DNA from: Dehalococcoidia bacterium
GTDB lineage: Bacteria; Chloroflexota; Dehalococcoidia; Dehalococcoidales; RBG-16-60-22
Assembly (NCBI GenBank): GCA_030615035.1
Contig: JAUXAC010000001.1
Span: 71,429-135,428, forward strand
DNA: 64,000 nt
Direction of reading: 5' to 3'
The notes below the pieces were generated by a model, which was not told where the DNA came from, searched no databases, and was given only the letters and a program-made list of their open reading frames with translations. This document shows positions 29,469-38,249 of the stretch, piece after piece; position 1 is the first letter of the stretch, and the number at the start of each line of letters is the position of its first letter. Position numbers and translations under genes: made by a program.

Positions 29469-29774
29469 TCAGGTCAACCCTGGGATTTTGAGACCCCCGG
29501 TCAGTCCGCCAAGGTGCTCGGCGGCAATTTCCTGGGATTTGGCGATGGCTTCACTTACCGCTGTCAATACCAGGTCTTCCAGAAGCTCGACATCATCAGA
29601 ATTTATCACTTCTGGTGATATTTTTACTGACTGTATTTTTTGTTGACCGTTCATAGTAACCTTAACGGCGCCTCCGCCTGAGCTGGCTTCAACAGTGATA
29701 TTGCTTAACTCCTCCTGGGCTTGAGCCAGCTTTGATTGAAGTTTCTGGGCTTGCTGCATGATAAACTTGTTCAT
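29469..29774 (-). CDS. ebfC: YbaB/EbfC nucleoid-associated protein
   Basis: 101 residues, a long N-terminal helix (MQQAQKLQSKLAQAQEEL), then the DNA-binding strand set with VKVTMNGQQKIQSVKI and a C-terminal helix. It forms dimers that bind DNA. The start overlaps the dnaX stop by 4 bases, the usual dnaX-ebfC linkage. Confidence 0.94.
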   Translation of the reverse strand: MNKFIMQQAQKLQSKLAQAQEELSNITVEASSGGGAVKVTMNGQQKIQSVKISPEVINSDDVELLEDLVLTAVSEAIAKSQEIAAEHLGGLTGGLKIPGLT

Positions 29775-31486
29775 TTCTCCTCCGTATCAATAATCTGGGC
29801 GCCTATCTTTAGTGCTTCCTCTATCAGGTGGTTGTCTTCCGGCTCATAAATACAGCGCACACGGCAGGAATGCCCCAGAAAGCTGCTGATGATTTTCTCG
29901 GCTATCTGCTGGTTCTCGGGTTTCTCCATGTTCTCTTTATGGAGAGGATACTTGAAGGATAATACTACTGTGTCTCCGTCAATAGCTTGGGGCTTGGCGC
30001 TCCTGAGTAAAGCTGCTGCCGGAGTTCGACTAATACTGGCCGGGGCGTCTCTGATAAATTGCCTCCAGTTCGCTTGCAGTTGTTCGATTTCACCACCTGG
30101 TTCTGATAGAGTGGTGGGGGTACTTTCTGCCGTTGGCGGTGTTGGTTCCGATGTAATGGCTGGCTCGACCTGTTCTTGAATATCTTTAGCCGTTTTCGTA
30201 GTTTGCTCTTCGGCTTTTTTCACGGTTGCATGTGCTTCCTCGGCTTTTCCTGGAGCTTCGTCGACTGATTTCGGAGTTGGTTCTTCAGCTTTCTTGGCCG
30301 GTTTAGGTTTGGCTGCTGGTTGTTTGGGCTGAGGTACAGGCGCTGGTGGGGTAGCCATCTCTACGGGTTGGCGTGGTTCATATTCAACCTGACTGGGAAG
30401 TTCTTCCTCGGTTGGAGACAGGGTGCAGTCAACCAGCGCTAACTCCAGAGGTAGCGTAGAATAGTTATCAAAACCAGGCTCAAGCTGACCGAAGAGCTTG
30501 ACTGCCTTCAATATCTGTGGTAGTGAAGCCTTGGCGGCTAAGTCCTTCAATTCAGTTATGTCCTCAGCCGGAAGGTCTATAGCCTCATCGGAGCCAGTTT
30601 TTATTAGGAGCAGTCCTCTGAGATATTCTACCAGTTCTCGATTGAATTGACGCAAATCCAGTCCATCGCTATTAACACTGTTTATGGTAACCACCCCGGC
30701 AGAAACATCATTATTAATAATGTGCTTAACCAGCTCTTTGGCTCGCCAGTCACCAGTGATACCCAGGACAGTCTGAACCTGCTGGAGTTCAATCTTGGAA
30801 CCATAATAAGTAGTTAGTTGCTCCAGCAGGTTTTCGGCATCTCGCAGGCTACCGGTGGCAGCCCTGGCGATGAGCCGCAGTGCTTCTGGCTCCGTGTGAA
30901 TACCTTCGGTGCTACAGATACGGGTCAGTTTGCTCACCACATCTGCCTGAGAGATGCGTCGGAAATCAAAGCGCTGGCACCGTGACAGAACGGTGGGTAG
31001 AACTTTATGGATTTCGGTGGTAGCCAGGATAAAGATAATATGTGGTGGCGGTTCCTCCAGCGTCTTGAGTAGGGCATTGGAGGCTTCTTTGGTAAGCATG
31101 TGGACTTCGTCTATGATATAGACTTTGTAGCGGGCTTCGTTGGGAGCATAGTTGACCCTCGCACGGAGCTCTCGGATTTCATCGATACCCCGATTGCTGG
31201 CAGCATCAACCTCAATAACATCCAGAGCTCTCCCCTCGGTTATTGCCTGGCACATAGAGCAGGTATTACACGGCTCGCCCTTGCCATTGGTAAGACAGTT
31301 AACCGCCTTAGCTAAAATACGCCCGGTGCTGGTCTTACCGGTGCCTCGGGGACCGCAGAAAAGATAGGCGTGAGATATGTGACCGCTACTCAGGGCATTG
31401 TGTAATGTCTGGGTTACCTGTTCCTGGCCGACTACATCAGCTAAGGTTTGGGGACGCCACCTACGATAAAAGACCTGGGAAGTCAT
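29771..31486 (-). CDS. dnaX: DNA polymerase III gamma/tau subunit
   Basis: 571 residues. The clamp-loader AAA+ domain has GPRGTGKTSTGRILAKAV, a zinc motif CNTCSMC, YIIDEVHMLTKEASNALLK and SRCQRFDF (arginine finger). A Pro/Lys/Glu linker (about 365-460) leads to a C-terminal domain. No slippery A-run for a short gamma form is evident, so only the full product is expected. TATAAT lies 7 bases before the ATG. Confidence 0.96.
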   Translation of the reverse strand: MTSQVFYRRWRPQTLADVVGQEQVTQTLHNALSSGHISHAYLFCGPRGTGKTSTGRILAKAVNCLTNGKGEPCNTCSMCQAITEGRALDVIEVDAASNRGIDEIRELRARVNYAPNEARYKVYIIDEVHMLTKEASNALLKTLEEPPPHIIFILATTEIHKVLPTVLSRCQRFDFRRISQADVVSKLTRICSTEGIHTEPEALRLIARAATGSLRDAENLLEQLTTYYGSKIELQQVQTVLGITGDWRAKELVKHIINNDVSAGVVTINSVNSDGLDLRQFNRELVEYLRGLLLIKTGSDEAIDLPAEDITELKDLAAKASLPQILKAVKLFGQLEPGFDNYSTLPLELALVDCTLSPTEEELPSQVEYEPRQPVEMATPPAPVPQPKQPAAKPKPAKKAEEPTPKSVDEAPGKAEEAHATVKKAEEQTTKTAKDIQEQVEPAITSEPTPPTAESTPTTLSEPGGEIEQLQANWRQFIRDAPASISRTPAAALLRSAKPQAIDGDTVVLSFKYPLHKENMEKPENQQIAEKIISSFLGHSCRVRCIYEPEDNHLIEEALKIGAQIIDTEEK

Positions 31487-31696: not shown

Positions 31697-32872
31697 TTAT
31701 AGTAACGAAGGTATGTCTTTTGAAGCGTCTTCAATTACTTTAAGTTTGACCTCTGTTTCTTCTTGTCTCTTTTTAAACTCAGGGATAAGTTCGGTCGATT
31801 TAGCATAATAGTCCCTGACCTTTTCCACATCGCTAAGTTCAGACAGAATTACAGTAACATCCAGTACGCCTCTTTCTCTGGGGTAATCACCGTTTCTTAT
31901 TAAAGCCTCTGGAGCTAAATCCCTCATATAATCCCCGAGTGCCTTAATTAAGTCCATATTCATTTCCTTAGACGGCGCCGAGATGAGATACAGAGCTCTC
32001 TTTGAATCTTTGGGATTGCACTTAAGCGATAGCTCACTTATCGCTTCGTCCATGGCTTGAATTCCTTTCAGCGTTTCGTTGCCCTTTTTCCTGAAATCGC
32101 GTGACCGTTCCCGGGGAAACCTGATTAATGGTAGCTCCGATTTCCCATAACCTATTACTGACCATCCGGTTATAGTCTGTATTATGTCTCCGGCATCAAG
32201 CACCCTCGACGCAATGTATTTGGATTTTTTCTCCTCACCGGCACAGAGTAAGTTATAAAATGGGTCAGCAATCATTTCATTAATTTTAGCTAGGTTCTGC
32301 TTAATCGATGAATCTTTTCTAACGAACCTTTGGTTATCAACGAGAAATACCGCATCAGCTACTGAATAGGTAGATTTAAGGCATGTGGCTGAGTTATATA
32401 CGGTCCTATCCTCTGTCGTTTCTTCATGCTCAAAGGGCAGAACGATAAGATTATATACCGGCTTATCTATATAACGTTCCTTTATATGTTGTGTTATTAC
32501 CGGAATTGCTCCGGAGCCGGTGCCGCCAGCAGCGCCAGCGATGAATAAGAAAGCATCTGTCTCAAAGAATCGCTTGGTTGTTCTTAGAGCATCTATAACT
32601 TTATCGGCATCCTCTCTGGCTATCTCAGCTCCCAGTTCATTTATCTTGCCGACGCCGTGCCCACCAGTCTTGCGACTTCCAATGAGAATTCGGTGCCGGT
32701 AATCGCCTTTTATATTGGTTAAGCCACTCAAGTCAGCAGCATCAGTGTTAACGGCGAAGGTGCCCGTAACTATCTCGATTCTACGCTGACTACGCGCTTT
32801 TCTATTCAGTCGGGCAAACTCATCAGCAATCCTGCCACCACATTGTCCAAAACCTGCAACCACTAATTTCAT
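31697..32872 (-). CDS. FtsZ/tubulin-superfamily GTPase, paralogue 1
   Basis: 391 residues. Tubulin-superfamily landmarks: GFGQCGGRI at residues 7-15 (nucleotide loop T1), NTDAADL at 42-48 (the FtsZ NTDAQAL loop), the signature GGTGSG at 116-121, and LDAGD at 225-229, in the place of the FtsZ T7 catalytic loop with both aspartates kept. It lacks the C-terminal FtsZ tail that binds FtsA. It is therefore FtsZ-like but not the division FtsZ. The gene is one of two near-identical-length paralogues bracketing coiled-coil genes. It has its own promoter and AGGTGAG ahead of the ATG. Confidence 0.85.
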   Translation of the reverse strand: MKLVVAGFGQCGGRIADEFARLNRKARSQRRIEIVTGTFAVNTDAADLSGLTNIKGDYRHRILIGSRKTGGHGVGKINELGAEIAREDADKVIDALRTTKRFFETDAFLFIAGAAGGTGSGAIPVITQHIKERYIDKPVYNLIVLPFEHEETTEDRTVYNSATCLKSTYSVADAVFLVDNQRFVRKDSSIKQNLAKINEMIADPFYNLLCAGEEKKSKYIASRVLDAGDIIQTITGWSVIGYGKSELPLIRFPRERSRDFRKKGNETLKGIQAMDEAISELSLKCNPKDSKRALYLISAPSKEMNMDLIKALGDYMRDLAPEALIRNGDYPRERGVLDVTVILSELSDVEKVRDYYAKSTELIPEFKKRQEETEVKLKVIEDASKDIPSLL

Positions 32873-32899
32873 TTCTCACCTCAGCATTAAAGTTTAACT

Positions 32900-32929
32900 A
32901 TTTTAAGCATACTTACAGGATAATGTCAA
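32900..32929 (-). promoter_or_regulatory. Sigma-70 promoter of tubulin-like gene 1
   Basis: On the minus strand, TTGACA at 32929-32924, an 18-base spacer, and TAAAAT at 32905-32900. The spacer and flanks resemble those at 37072-37101. Confidence 0.7.
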
Positions 32930-33038
32930 TCCTTTTGTTGTTACAAGGTGATAATGCCCGTAGTAATAAAGTCCATAGTAATAATGTCAGGGTAAGATTA
33001 CAAAATGGTTCTATCATCCCCGTTTTTACTTAATTTGG

Positions 33039-35174
33039 ATGGCAAACTGGTCTACTAGCACTCTGAATAAGAAAGGGCTATTGAAAAATTTGCAAGCCTA
33101 TAATAGAATTAGTAACACTAGAGGTATTGAAGGGATGGTTAGAGAAATATCTAGGGAACTCTTAAACGACGCGGAACATAATATTGGTGCCTTTGAAAAA
33201 GCGGTAGCCAGGGCTGAGGAATTAAGCAAGGCAGCCAGGGAAGCAACTGAAACGTCGGCAAGAGCCTCCCAAGAAGCGATAAGAAAGGCTGAGAAAATAA
33301 GCAAGGAAGCCAGAGAGGCGGCTGAAGCCTCGGCAAGGGCTTCCCGGGAAGCGGTAAGTAAGGCTAAGAAAATAAGCAAAGAGGCTAAGGAGGCAGCTGA
33401 GGCATCAATCAGAGCTGCCCAGGAAGCAATAAGTCGGACTGAGGAAACAGCCAAGGTCCCCAAGGAAACGGCTAAGGCAATAGCCAGAGCCTTCCAGGAA
33501 GCAATAGCCAGAGCTGAGGAAATAAGCAAGGAAGCTATGGAAGCAGCCGAGGCATCACTTGCAGCGTCACAAGAAGGATTAAGCCGGGTTAGTGAAATAA
33601 GTGAAGAAGCTAGGGCAGTGGCTGAGGCGTCGGCGAAAGTAGCTAAAGAAGAGCTAAACAAGGCTGAGGAAGCAGGTAAGACAGCCAGGGAAGTAGCTGG
33701 GGCGTCAACCAAAACGGCTAAGGAAACGGCAAACCGGGCTGAGAAAATAAGTAAAGAGGCTAAGGAGGCAGCTGAGGCATCAACCAGAGCGGCTAGAGAA
33801 GCGTCAAGTCGGGCTGAGAAGGCAAGCAAAGCGACCAAGGAAACTGCTGATGCCTCGGCGAGAGCGGCTCAGGAAGTGGCACTCAGAGCCGAGGTAATAA
33901 GTAGGGAGGCTAAGGAAGTGGCTGAGACTTCACTGGGAGTCTCCCAGGAAATAATGGGTAAGGTCGGGGAAATAAGTAAAGAAATTAAGCAGACGGCTCA
34001 GGCATCAACCAAAGCATCTCGAGAAGCGATGAACCGGGCTGAGGCAGCAAGCAGGGAAGCCAGAGAAGTGGCTGAAGCATCAGCCAGGGTCGCCAAGGAA
34101 GCAACTGAAGCCTCAACCATAGCCTCCCAGGAGACAATAAGTAAAGCCGAAGAGATAAGTAAAGAGACCAGGGAAGCAGCTGAGGCGTTGGCCAGAGCCT
34201 TTGCGGAAGCGATAAGCAAAGCCGAAGAAATAAGTAAAGAAGCCAAAGAAGCAGCTGAAACGTCAACTATAGCCTCTCAGGAGGCAATAAATAAAGCCGA
34301 AGAGATAAGCAAGGAGACCAGGGAAGCAGCTGAAGCCTCAACCATAGCCTCCCGGGAAGCGATAAGCAAAGCCGAAGAAATCAGCAGAGAGGCTAAGGAG
34401 GCTACTGAGGCGTCAGTCACGGCTGCCAAAGAAGCTGTTGAAGCCTCAACAAGGGCATCTCAGGAAGCATCTGAGGCATCAACCAATGCATATCAGGAAG
34501 CAATAAGCAAAGCTGAAGAAATAAGTAAGAAGGCTAAGAAAACTACTGAAGCGTCAGCCAGGGCTGCCAAACAAACTGTTGAAGCAGTGATAAGGGCGTC
34601 TCAGGAAGCGGTTGAGGCATCAACCAGAGCCTCCCAGGAAGCGATAGCCAGAGCCGAAGAAATAAGTAAGGAGGTTAAGGAGGCTGCTGAGGCATCGGCT
34701 AAAGTTGTCAGGGAGGCAGCCGAAGTGACGGTTAGAGCTGCCAAGGAGGCTACGGAGGTATCCACAAGAGTCGCTAGGGAAGCGGCTAAGGTGTCAATGA
34801 GAGCCTTCGAGGAGGCGATAAACCGGTCTGAGGCAACTGGCAAAGTAGCTCAGGAGACGGCTGAGTCATCGCTAAGAGCCTTCGAGAAAGCAATAGGCAG
34901 AGCTGAGGAAATAACTGAGGAAGCCAAGGAGGCTACTGAGGCAATAGGCAAACCGGAAGTTGAAGTGACTGAGTCATCGATAAGAGCCTTTGCGGAACCG
35001 ATAGGCGGAGCTGAAGAGACTAGTGTAAAAGAAAAAAGAGGGACTGGAAAAGCTAAAGGTAAGGGAAAAGTTGAGGCGCGTTTGGAATTCCTGGCCAGGA
35101 TGTATGAGGCGAAGAAAACCAAACAAGCTGAAGAGGAGCCCACGGTAGAAGATACGGAGGCAGTCGAGGAATAG
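33039..35174 (+). CDS. Long Ala/Glu/Lys-rich repeat protein (helical rod)
   Basis: 711 residues. After a ~55-residue head, residues 58 to about 640 are repeats with a 25-residue period (KAEEISKEAKEAAEAS is the core), about 23 units, some carrying 11-residue steps (EASTRASQEA). The composition is Ala, Glu, Lys, Ser and very few aromatics: a near-continuous amphipathic helix. The tail is basic (GKAKGKGKVEAR), then acidic. No signal peptide or membrane segment. No clear Shine-Dalgarno precedes the ATG at 33039; ATG 33135 is an alternative. I recognise no named family; a filament or scaffold role beside the tubulin-like proteins is inference. Confidence 0.85.
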   Translation: MANWSTSTLNKKGLLKNLQAYNRISNTRGIEGMVREISRELLNDAEHNIGAFEKAVARAEELSKAAREATETSARASQEAIRKAEKISKEAREAAEASARASREAVSKAKKISKEAKEAAEASIRAAQEAISRTEETAKVPKETAKAIARAFQEAIARAEEISKEAMEAAEASLAASQEGLSRVSEISEEARAVAEASAKVAKEELNKAEEAGKTAREVAGASTKTAKETANRAEKISKEAKEAAEASTRAAREASSRAEKASKATKETADASARAAQEVALRAEVISREAKEVAETSLGVSQEIMGKVGEISKEIKQTAQASTKASREAMNRAEAASREAREVAEASARVAKEATEASTIASQETISKAEEISKETREAAEALARAFAEAISKAEEISKEAKEAAETSTIASQEAINKAEEISKETREAAEASTIASREAISKAEEISREAKEATEASVTAAKEAVEASTRASQEASEASTNAYQEAISKAEEISKKAKKTTEASARAAKQTVEAVIRASQEAVEASTRASQEAIARAEEISKEVKEAAEASAKVVREAAEVTVRAAKEATEVSTRVAREAAKVSMRAFEEAINRSEATGKVAQETAESSLRAFEKAIGRAEEITEEAKEATEAIGKPEVEVTESSIRAFAEPIGGAEETSVKEKRGTGKAKGKGKVEARLEFLARMYEAKKTKQAEEEPTVEDTEAVEE

Positions 35175-35236
35175 GTAGGTGAGAGGTTGATTATTGGTCA
35201 GTGTATCAACAAAATTGGTAAAGGAGGTACTACCCT

Positions 35237-35794
35237 ATGACGGACAAAAGGAAGCGAGCCAGGAAGGCTAGTAAGAAGGCTGAAGAGGCAACTGTGCAAC
35301 CACTTGAAGAAGTTCAAGAGCAGGTTGAGCAGGTCGCCAAGGAAGCCGAGGAGCAGGTTGAACAGGCTGCTGAGGAAGCTGAAGAGCAACTTGCGCGACC
35401 ACTTGATGAGGTTCTGGGGCAAGCCGAGAAAGCATACGCAGCCTATATGGAAGCTCAACGGCAAGTGGCAAGCGCTTATAGAGTGAATGAACAGCAAATA
35501 GCAAAGGCCTATAAGAGGGCAGAGCAGCAAGCCAAGAATGCCTGTGATGAGAGTATAAGGCAGGCCTTAAAAGCCCGTGAGGAAACTATGACGCAAGCCC
35601 TGAAAGACCGTGACGATGCTATAGCGCAAGCCGGAAGGGCTTATAAGAAAGCAAGAGAGCAAGCCGAGGGAGCCTGTGAAACCAGCATAGAGGAATCCTG
35701 GAAAAAGCGGGAGGAGGCTGCAGAACAAGCTTGGCAACTGCGTGAAGAGACTATAGAGCAAGCCTGGAATATCTATTCTAAACTCTCAAGGTAA
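35237..35794 (+). CDS. Second coiled-coil protein of the tubulin-like locus
   Basis: 185 residues. The N-terminus is basic (DKRKRARKASKKA), then Glu/Gln heptad-like stretches (EQVEQVAKEAEEQVEQAAEE). The C-terminal half is a 44-residue unit present twice: one copy starts AYKRAEQQAKNAC, the other AYKKAREQAEGAC. 44 is four hendecads, matching the 11-residue steps of the neighbour. AAAGGAGGT lies eight bases before the ATG, a strong site. It follows the long rod gene by 62 bases on the same strand. Confidence 0.85.
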   Translation: MTDKRKRARKASKKAEEATVQPLEEVQEQVEQVAKEAEEQVEQAAEEAEEQLARPLDEVLGQAEKAYAAYMEAQRQVASAYRVNEQQIAKAYKRAEQQAKNACDESIRQALKAREETMTQALKDRDDAIAQAGRAYKKAREQAEGACETSIEESWKKREEAAEQAWQLREETIEQAWNIYSKLSR

Positions 35795-35866
35795 AAGAGG
35801 AAGTCCTTCATTCAGATTAAATAGCTAGCCTGATACGTTGTTATTTAATAGCCTTAGGCTGGGCAA

Positions 35867-37042
35867 TTATAGCAAGGAGGGTATATCCTTTAGGGTAACC
35901 TCAATTCCTTTATATTTGCTTTCTACTCCTTCAAGTCTCTTTTTAAGAGTAGAAATGAGGCTGATTGTTTTAGTAAAGTAGTCCCTGACCTTTTCCACAT
36001 CGCTTAGGTCGGACAGAATTACGGTAATGTCCAGAGAGCCTCTTTCCCGGGGGTAATCGCCACTCCTTATTACCGCCTCCGGGGCTAGACCTTTTATATA
36101 AGTACCGAGTTCCTTAATTAAGTCCATATTCATTTCCTTGGCTGGCGCCGAGACGAGATATAGGGCTCTCTTCGCATCTACGGGATTGCACTTGAGTGAT
36201 AATCCAATTATAGCTTCGTCCATGGCTTGAACTCCCTTTTGGGCTTCAGTAGCCTTATTCCTGAAATCGCGTGCTCGTGTAAAGAGAGATTTAGCAAGCG
36301 AAAACTGCGTTTTCCCGTAGCCTATAACTGTCCATCCGGTCACAGTCTGTATTATATCACCGGCATCAAGTATTTTTGCCCCGATGTATTTGTGCTTTTT
36401 CTCCTCACCGGCACAGAGTAAGTTGTAAAAGGGTGCGGTTATTGTGGCATTAATTTTAGCCAAGTTACTTCTGAGCGATGAATCTTTCATGATATACCTT
36501 TGATTATCAACAAGGAATATCGCATCAGCCACCAGATAAGCAGATTTAAGACAGGTGGCGGCGTTATATATAGTTCTTTCCTCTGTTGTCTCTTCATGCT
36601 CAAAGGGAAGGACAATAAGGTTATATACTGGCTTATCTACGTAGCGCTCCTTTATGTGCTGTGATATTACTGAGATTGCTCCAGAGCCAGTACCGCCAGC
36701 AGCACCAGCGATAAGCATGAAGGCATCCGCCTCAGCGAATCGCTTGTCTGTTCTTACAGTGTCTATAACCTTGTCGCCATCTTCTCTGGCTATCTCCGCC
36801 CCCAGTTCATTTATTTTGCCGACGCCATGCCCGCCAGTCTTGCGACCCCCGATAAGGATTCGGTGCTGGTAATCGGGCTTTATGCTGGTTAGTCCACTCA
36901 GGTCAGCAACATCAGTGTTAACAGCAAAGACACCACTAACTATATCAATGCCGCGCTGGCCGCGTGCTTTTCTGTTCAGTCGGGCAAACTCGTCAGCAAT
37001 CCTGCCGCCACATTGTCCAAAACCTACAACTATTAGTTTCAT
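35867..37042 (-). CDS. FtsZ/tubulin-superfamily GTPase, paralogue 2
   Basis: 391 residues, exactly the length of paralogue 1 and alignable by eye without gaps, with roughly three quarters of positions identical (counted only by eye). GQCGGRI, NTDVADL, GGTGSG and LDAGD are all kept. The main differences lie at about residues 245-270 and 355-385, so the two could form heteropolymers or separate filaments. It is convergent with the coiled-coil gene ending at 35794 and has its own promoter. Confidence 0.85.
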   Translation of the reverse strand: MKLIVVGFGQCGGRIADEFARLNRKARGQRGIDIVSGVFAVNTDVADLSGLTSIKPDYQHRILIGGRKTGGHGVGKINELGAEIAREDGDKVIDTVRTDKRFAEADAFMLIAGAAGGTGSGAISVISQHIKERYVDKPVYNLIVLPFEHEETTEERTIYNAATCLKSAYLVADAIFLVDNQRYIMKDSSLRSNLAKINATITAPFYNLLCAGEEKKHKYIGAKILDAGDIIQTVTGWTVIGYGKTQFSLAKSLFTRARDFRNKATEAQKGVQAMDEAIIGLSLKCNPVDAKRALYLVSAPAKEMNMDLIKELGTYIKGLAPEAVIRSGDYPRERGSLDITVILSDLSDVEKVRDYFTKTISLISTLKKRLEGVESKYKGIEVTLKDIPSLL

Positions 37043-37071
37043 TTCTCACCTTTATGCGAGGCAACTGTACT

Positions 37072-37101
37072 ATTTTAGGCATTCTTACCCAGTAAAGTCA
37101 A
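37072..37101 (-). promoter_or_regulatory. Sigma-70 promoter of tubulin-like gene 2
   Basis: On the minus strand, TTGACT at 37101-37096, an 18-base spacer, and TAAAAT at 37077-37072. The AGGTGAGAAATGAAA start context is the same as in paralogue 1. Confidence 0.7.

Positions 37102-37232: not shown

Positions 37233-38249
<1,017 letters not shown>

Follow-up and report, generated by a model that had tools for sequence, protein, structure and literature searches.

Two tubulin-like GTPase genes and two genes for helical repeat proteins lie side by side in a member of the Dehalococcoidia, which raises the question whether they form a cytoskeletal system and, if so, which of them belong together. They are located in a window of 64,000 nucleotides, the whole stretch of DNA analyzed (assembly GCA_030615035.1, contig JAUXAC010000001.1, positions 71,429 to 135,428 of the forward strand). 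All coordinates of the locus below refer to this window. In a preliminary description, the four genes had been proposed as an undescribed cytoskeletal module. On the basis of profile matches and the predicted fold, the GTPases, here A and B, are CetZ-like members of the tubulin superfamily in bacteria. The module centers on GTPase B and the rod-like protein C, and a co-encoded rod partner of a CetZ-like GTPase in murein-less bacteria seems to be new. On balance we consider it probable that B would polymerize into a GTP-driven CetZ-like filament, to which C would bind as a dedicated rod partner.

The four open reading frames (ORFs) A, C, D, and B occupy the space between homologues of dnaX and gapA, as follows.

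35867..37042, minus strand: GTPase B, 391 amino acids (aa), CetZ-like, C-terminus KDIPSLL, the C-linked paralogue (ORF, Pfam, clade)
33039..35174, plus strand: C, rod with 25-residue repeats, 711 aa (ORF)
35013..35150, plus strand: conserved segment near the C-terminus of C that includes RLEFLARMY, putative docking helix (alignment, AlphaFold2 (AF2))
31697..32872, minus strand: GTPase A, 391 aa, CetZ-like, C-terminus KDIPSLL, immediately upstream of dnaX (ORF and Pfam)
35237..35794, plus strand: D, hendecad-repeat helical protein, optional part, 185 aa (ORF)
32873..33038: intergenic gap of 166 bp separating the start codons of the divergent genes A and C (ORF coordinates)
35795..35866: intergenic gap of 72 bp between the convergent genes D and B (ORF coordinates)
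37233..38246, minus strand: putative gapA homologue, conserved flank on the B side, named by sequence alone
29771..31486, minus strand: putative dnaX homologue, conserved flank on the A side, named by sequence alone

The ORFs agreed with the two paralogous 391-residue GTPases and the flanked coils of 711 and 185 residues described earlier, except that B ends at 37042 and not at 37101. The 166-bp gap likely acts as a shared promoter region of A and C.

Both GTPases matched PF00091, the tubulin/FtsZ GTPase domain (cut-off 33), with 114.2 bits (E = 1.2e-32) for A and 110.8 bits (E = 1.3e-31) for B, and PF21011, CetZ_C (cut-off 21.6), with 63.9 bits (E = 1.6e-17) and 62.1 bits (E = 6e-17), respectively. 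They are 75% identical, both retain GGTGSG, and the NTDAADL loop of A reads NTDVADL in B. The AF2 model of A had a predicted local distance difference test score (pLDDT) of 85.8, and the top matches of the predicted fold were Haloferax volcanii CetZ1 and CetZ2 (PDB 4b46 and 4b45). Following alignment of 23 relatives, residues G116-G121 (GGTGSG) and D226, G228, and D229 (LDAGD, T7) were found to be invariant. The motifs read in the preliminary description, including both acidic T7 residues, were thus confirmed, and the proteins belong to the tubulin family rather than to an unrelated GTPase family. Retention of the T7 catalytic residues in B argues for a polymer-coupled GTPase. Division FtsZ was considered and rejected as the identity of A and B, because the curated TIGR00065 cut-off was missed (61.4 and 56.1 bits vs. 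295.2) and the true FtsZ adjoins ftsA in the related loci examined.

A contig scan of genomes yielded 52 related loci. The four-gene order recurred in 18 of these (17 intact, B> <D <C A>, and L036, in which A is split), so that a lack of conserved gene order in relatives, named as a refutation in the preliminary description, does not apply. Five loci carried variants (two A> B> <D <C, two without A, one without D), six were interrupted by contig ends, and 23 had an A-type gene only, some of them on short contigs; 'A-type' denotes the best score in this count and not a clade. Being common and not universal, the order does not define a four-gene unit, which was rejected. What stood of the four-gene cluster is the tight B-C pair; A is a separate paralogue and D is optional. 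The split A of L036 (L036:7835-8892), from a metagenome bin, consists of two ORFs, reflecting either decay or a sequencing error.

For the tree, 100 loci supplied 129 distinct GTPases of full length (truncated ones were excluded), which were thinned at 93% identity to 108 rows; a second, more careful tree had 96 rows after the removal of 12 long-branch rows. The B-type clade comprised 35 rows, with a Shimodaira-Hasegawa-like approximate likelihood ratio (SH-aLRT) of 99 in the 108-row tree and a bootstrap of 100 and SH-aLRT of 99 in the 96-row tree. All 35 rows face an Ala/Glu-rich coil tail-to-tail (the automatic flag had missed L079 and L134, in both of which the coil was present on reading), and a C-type rod with the C-terminal motif accompanied every one of them, either as the facing coil or just past D. 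The motif R[LM]xxLxxM[YFL] was located near the rod C-terminus within 900 bp of B in 34/35 rows; in the remaining row, L100, the contig-truncated coil bears RVEFLARMY and matches the C profile. Like the pattern of the GTPase tail discussed below, this motif was composed after the sequences had been viewed. It was found in 42 of 1623 ORFs scanned, none with an A+E+K+R+Q fraction below 0.40. The A5 profile, built from the C-terminal segment, matched in 24 of 294 genomes of the class, and 23 of these matches lay at most 1.3 kb from a CetZ_C match, with about 0.005 expected per genome; the 24th was weak (E = 0.003, 16 columns).

A lies apart from the coil-linked clade, its usual place being between gapA and dnaX without any coil. 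Conservation of this place with or without coils could mean that a quiet locus keeps A, B, and C together with no physical partnership between the products, so that only the neighborhood is inherited. We regard this as improbable, given the 23/24 linkage and the occurrence of the pair elsewhere: the B-D-C unit was found away from A in L069, L070, and L072, and the tail-to-tail B-C order stands beside unrelated genes in L079, L088, L091, L132, and L134. In genome G003, two near-identical blocks of ~6 kb (L069:5314-11335 and L070:5264-11285) each carry B, D, C, and a gene for a 550-aa protein; located far from the A gene of that genome, they point to a recent duplication in which the pair was relocated as a whole.

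The conserved place also bears on a role in DNA partition or other transport in the manner of TubZ, with the coils as cargo adaptors. In TubZ systems a filament-forming GTPase is paired with a dedicated partner, a logic shared by B and C, and TubZ and CetZ may share ancestry (PMC9871819). The cassette occupies the chromosomal gapA-dnaX place in most complete loci, and none of the genes between A and B encodes a DNA-binding protein, which makes this explanation very improbable.

Repeats of 25 residues in C and of 11 in D had been described before, and both proved to be beyond chance. In C, identity at lag 25 reached 0.43, compared with 0.145 on average after shuffling (z = 22), and lag 11 was also raised (z = 10.8). 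The protein is rich in Ala and Glu, with a periodicity of 3.58 residues in charged and in small-plus-hydrophobic residues; large hydrophobic residues alone gave no significant periodicity. In the AF2 model (mean pLDDT 52.6, predicted template modeling score 0.20), which is usable for secondary structure only, a nearly unbroken helix was predicted at low confidence for residues 46-630, followed by a disordered stretch and by a helix at 675-697. The latter, bearing RLEFLARMY, was the best-predicted part (pLDDT about 80). Provided that residues 46-630 form one straight helix, C could measure about 88 nm. Across 28 aligned sequences, the R, L, and M of the C-terminal motif were invariant, and the short helix carrying them is a candidate for docking, either to the filament or to a common adaptor. 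Among the 52 loci, proteins encoded by complete C genes are 464 to 823 aa long, and in an alignment of orthologues (A4, filtered at 387 aa or more), lineages differed by indels of 25 and 11 columns, suggesting that rod length evolves by whole repeat units.

C might instead be an amphipathic coat, similar to phasins or apolipoproteins, on lipid bodies or polymer granules positioned by the GTPase. In agreement with this, C of the window scored above the cut-off of Pfam Phasin_2 (PF09361; 40.5 vs. 24.9 bits), 6/18 C orthologues matched this family at E = 0.01, and a distant C gave a weak ApoLp-III match. The remaining 12/18 orthologues did not match Phasin_2, the large hydrophobic residues of C are aperiodic, unlike a strong lipid-binding face, and PhaC_N was detected in 0/12 related genomes (the window's own not among them), in a search with a thin control, 1/14 positive (Caulobacter). 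A coat function is accordingly given little probability.

Two further coils lie near CetZ-like genes. In L067:6754-10512, the gene of a divergent CetZ-like GTPase (280 bits to GTPase profile A1, tail AKGIPRLA) precedes, in the same orientation, one for an Ala-rich coil of 628 aa with a hydrophobic, transmembrane-like helix at its C-terminus. A coil with a similar start and a hydrophobic end is encoded at L086:1210-2448, about 3.2 kb from another CetZ-like gene. These coils are possibly a membrane-anchored version of the rod.

D showed an autocorrelation peak at lag 11 (z = 8.1) and a peak of charged residues at 3.66 per turn, and its relatives vary by 11-residue indels. It is an optional component, missing from several B-C pairs (e.g., L018, L079, L085, and L132-L134). 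Among 23 genomes with D matches, 12 matches adjoin CetZ_C, eight lie next to a helix-turn-helix gene and away from any CetZ_C, and three are weak or distant; the helix-turn-helix neighbors were read as genes in L118 and L121 and only scanned in the other six. In these two loci (L118:6667-8575 and L121:5744-7681), the D-like protein is encoded between an HTH_17/MerR-like gene and a gene for a 355-383-aa protein of unknown family. DivIVA, suggested by sequence reading for the D-like neighbor, was unsupported by Pfam. Crescentin, FilP, and Scy are long helical repeat proteins of bacteria thought to form scaffolds, and C and D could likewise constitute an independent, intermediate filament-like scaffold comparable to those of crescentin or FilP, which B, perhaps a switch rather than a filament, would position or regulate. 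The helical repeats of C, the hendecads of D, and a weak similarity of D to Scy, a protein of polarized growth (E = 0.0075, well short of the cut-off), fit such a scaffold, and the eight genomes with a D-like protein away from GTPases imply that D can work without CetZ. This alternative was judged unlikely, in view of the location of C beside a CetZ-like gene in all but the weak one of its profile matches and of the polymer-coupled GTPase favored by the T7 residues of B.

According to the preliminary description, the GTPases lacked a division-FtsZ tail. This held for the long linker and the RRP extension, which are missing; a conserved KDIPSLL peptide is present. A tail of the form [IVL]Px[LVIF] terminates 105 of the 108 GTPases scoring at least 500 bits to profile A1, the other three having KD[IV]PSL followed by an extension, and was present in 1/13 GTPases at 300-500 bits and in 3/8 below 300 bits. 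The FtsZ C-termini of four loci of the same group read LDIPSFMRRP, LDMPSFLRRP, LDIPAFLRRP, and LDVPSFLRRP, so KDIPSLL partly resembles, in a shortened DIPSLL form, the FtsZ peptide LD[IVM]P[SA]F[LM]RRP. The tail was also considered as a coil-binding site and disfavored; since GTPases without a neighboring coil carry it too, its partner is probably not C. The FtsZ tail binds the anchors FtsA, ZipA, or SepF. SepF was detected in 0/12 related genomes, while the same search was positive in 7/14 controls. With SepF undetected and FtsA encoded beside FtsZ in these genomes, FtsA is the best candidate anchor, and KDIPSLL probably tethers the filaments to an adaptor of this kind.

The preliminary description had also raised the possibility that the host lacks peptidoglycan, with which the relatives agree: those carrying these genes lack MraY. 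In 294 genomes of the class, CetZ_C was found in 67 and MraY in 134, with an overlap of 0, and neither in 93; the Fisher p of 6e-22 overstates the exclusion, as species are not independent. MraY was detected in 0/8 related genomes tested, and single absences are weak because genome completeness was not given. MreB was above cut-off in 0/12 genomes; sub-cut-off matches were obtained in 12/12, some at the ftsA position and others in ORFs of ~640 aa, which are probably DnaK. Bactofilin exceeded its cut-off in 1/12. In a sample of 251 genomes of the phylum, CetZ_C was found in 19, all of which had already been found in the class search.

Taken as a mechanism, B would most likely assemble head-to-tail into GTP-dependent protofilaments, in which hydrolysis would be completed by the pair of acidic T7 residues that the adjoining subunit supplies. 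C would be the dedicated, rod-like, helix-rich partner, with a flexible linker and a conserved C-terminal helix for docking on the filament or an adaptor; in some lineages, D would contribute a further, shorter helical component. Tethered by KDIPSLL to an adaptor such as FtsA, the whole would form a scaffold or shape system under the membrane in hosts that have no murein and no detectable MreB. What was observed is the homology, the predicted fold, the retention of catalytic residues, the conservation of the pairing, the tail, and the C motif, and the absence of MraY; filament assembly, B-C binding, FtsA binding, and the role in shape are inferred.

Several points weigh against this interpretation. 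Gene pairing is no proof of binding, and a C-motif match stands beside a CetZ-like gene in just 23 of the 67 CetZ_C genomes, so C is not required for CetZ-like function as such. KDIPSLL has neither the Phe nor the RRP of FtsZ tails, and GTPases without any coil carry it equally often. Given the poor AF2 model, the straight rod is hypothetical; Ala-rich helices of such length may also double back or associate with lipids, and C of the window does score with Phasin_2. Exclusion of MraY may reflect only one ancestral loss. A further-reaching version, which we put forward tentatively and with some doubt, would have the CetZ cytoskeleton replace the wall in setting cell shape: FtsA-tethered B filaments would be crosslinked or spaced by C, likewise in Dehalococcoides mccartyi, the rods, whose length is lineage-specific, would resemble microtubule-associated proteins, and the hosts would have given up murein, MreB, and SepF.

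The pair extends to genomes matching cultured Dehalococcoides. In L079, the B-type GTPase shares 99% identity with 'cell division protein FtsZ [Dehalococcoides mccartyi]' and 97% with a record assigned to the genus Dehalococcoides. A convergent C-type coil was found in G055 (the genome of L079) and in G019 (L081), the C motif lies at the same distance in G104, and the A-type gene of L078 adjoins a gapA-like gene. A protein search with the Dehalococcoides-type C gave a single match, to a protein without a name; the assignment of C to D. mccartyi is based on the neighborhood in genomes whose GTPase matches D. mccartyi-named proteins. Three ftsZ-annotated genes, one adjoining ftsA, are given for D. 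mccartyi in PMC5102406; the other two would correspond to A and B. In these important organohalide-respiring bacteria, the pair suggests a skeleton of their own, which can be tested. Shape control in the absence of murein is poorly understood, and work on CetZ has been confined almost entirely to archaea; with a rod partner encoded throughout the B clade, in genomes lacking MraY, the general question becomes a test on two genes.

Names in databases are relevant here as well. Relatives are recorded as 'tubulin/FtsZ family protein' or 'Tubulin-like protein CetZ', and some CetZ-like proteins (P0121, P0009, and others) as 'cell division protein FtsZ' or 'cell division GTPase FtsZ', which hides a second system and matters for reading expression and proteome data. 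P0226, 62% identical to a Dehalococcoides GTPase, is recorded from a Bathyarchaeota archaeon bin, reflecting transfer or a mis-binned contig. Lone proteins in L082, L083, L098, L101, L102, and L103 scored ~120-138 bits to CetZ_C, far above the cassette GTPases; without IPSLL tail or coil, they represent a second, more archaeal-like bacterial group. No coil was flagged within 500 bp of these or of a third subfamily (L107-L117).

Compared with known systems, division FtsZ shares with A and B the superfamily, GGTGSG, and, in part, a D-[IVL]-P-x-L-like C-terminal peptide, and differs in the long linker, the RRP extension, and the TIGR00065 score. Phasins share the PF09361 match of the window's C, but most orthologues remain unmatched and PhaC was not detected in the 12 genomes. 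As in crescentin, FilP, and Scy, C and D are long helical repeat proteins, but the coil is here tied to a tubulin-family GTPase, and family searches with C and D gave no significant match to these three. Archaeal CetZ, as in H. volcanii CetZ1 and CetZ2, has in common with A and B the GTPase domain, CetZ_C, the overall predicted fold, and the presence beside division FtsZ of a second tubulin-family protein in several copies per genome. A and B are bacterial, about 30% identical, and end in KDIPSLL, whereas Haloferax CetZ1 ends in INDDEDEL; moreover, B is paired with a rod, and no such pair is mentioned for archaeal cetZ neighborhoods in the passages of PMC9856176 consulted. In one sentence of PMC9871819, Santana-Molina et al. 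(2023) included Chloroflexota-Dehalococcoidia among CetZ-like groups; the Dehalococcoidia groups matched by the CetZ_C model are described as sparse and paraphyletic. These are very probably the same proteins as those described here, and in the sections consulted that paper is silent on their neighbors, the two paralogues, the tail, and cell-wall loss; it notes unknown coiled-coil neighbors for other, archaeal tubulin-like proteins. In listings of the open-license literature, with subscription papers and preprints outside its scope, the B-C pair, the tail, and the link to wall loss were not found announced. CetZ-like proteins of Dehalococcoidia being already in print, it is the rod partner and the tail, and not the GTPases, that seem new in the undescribed module proposed initially.
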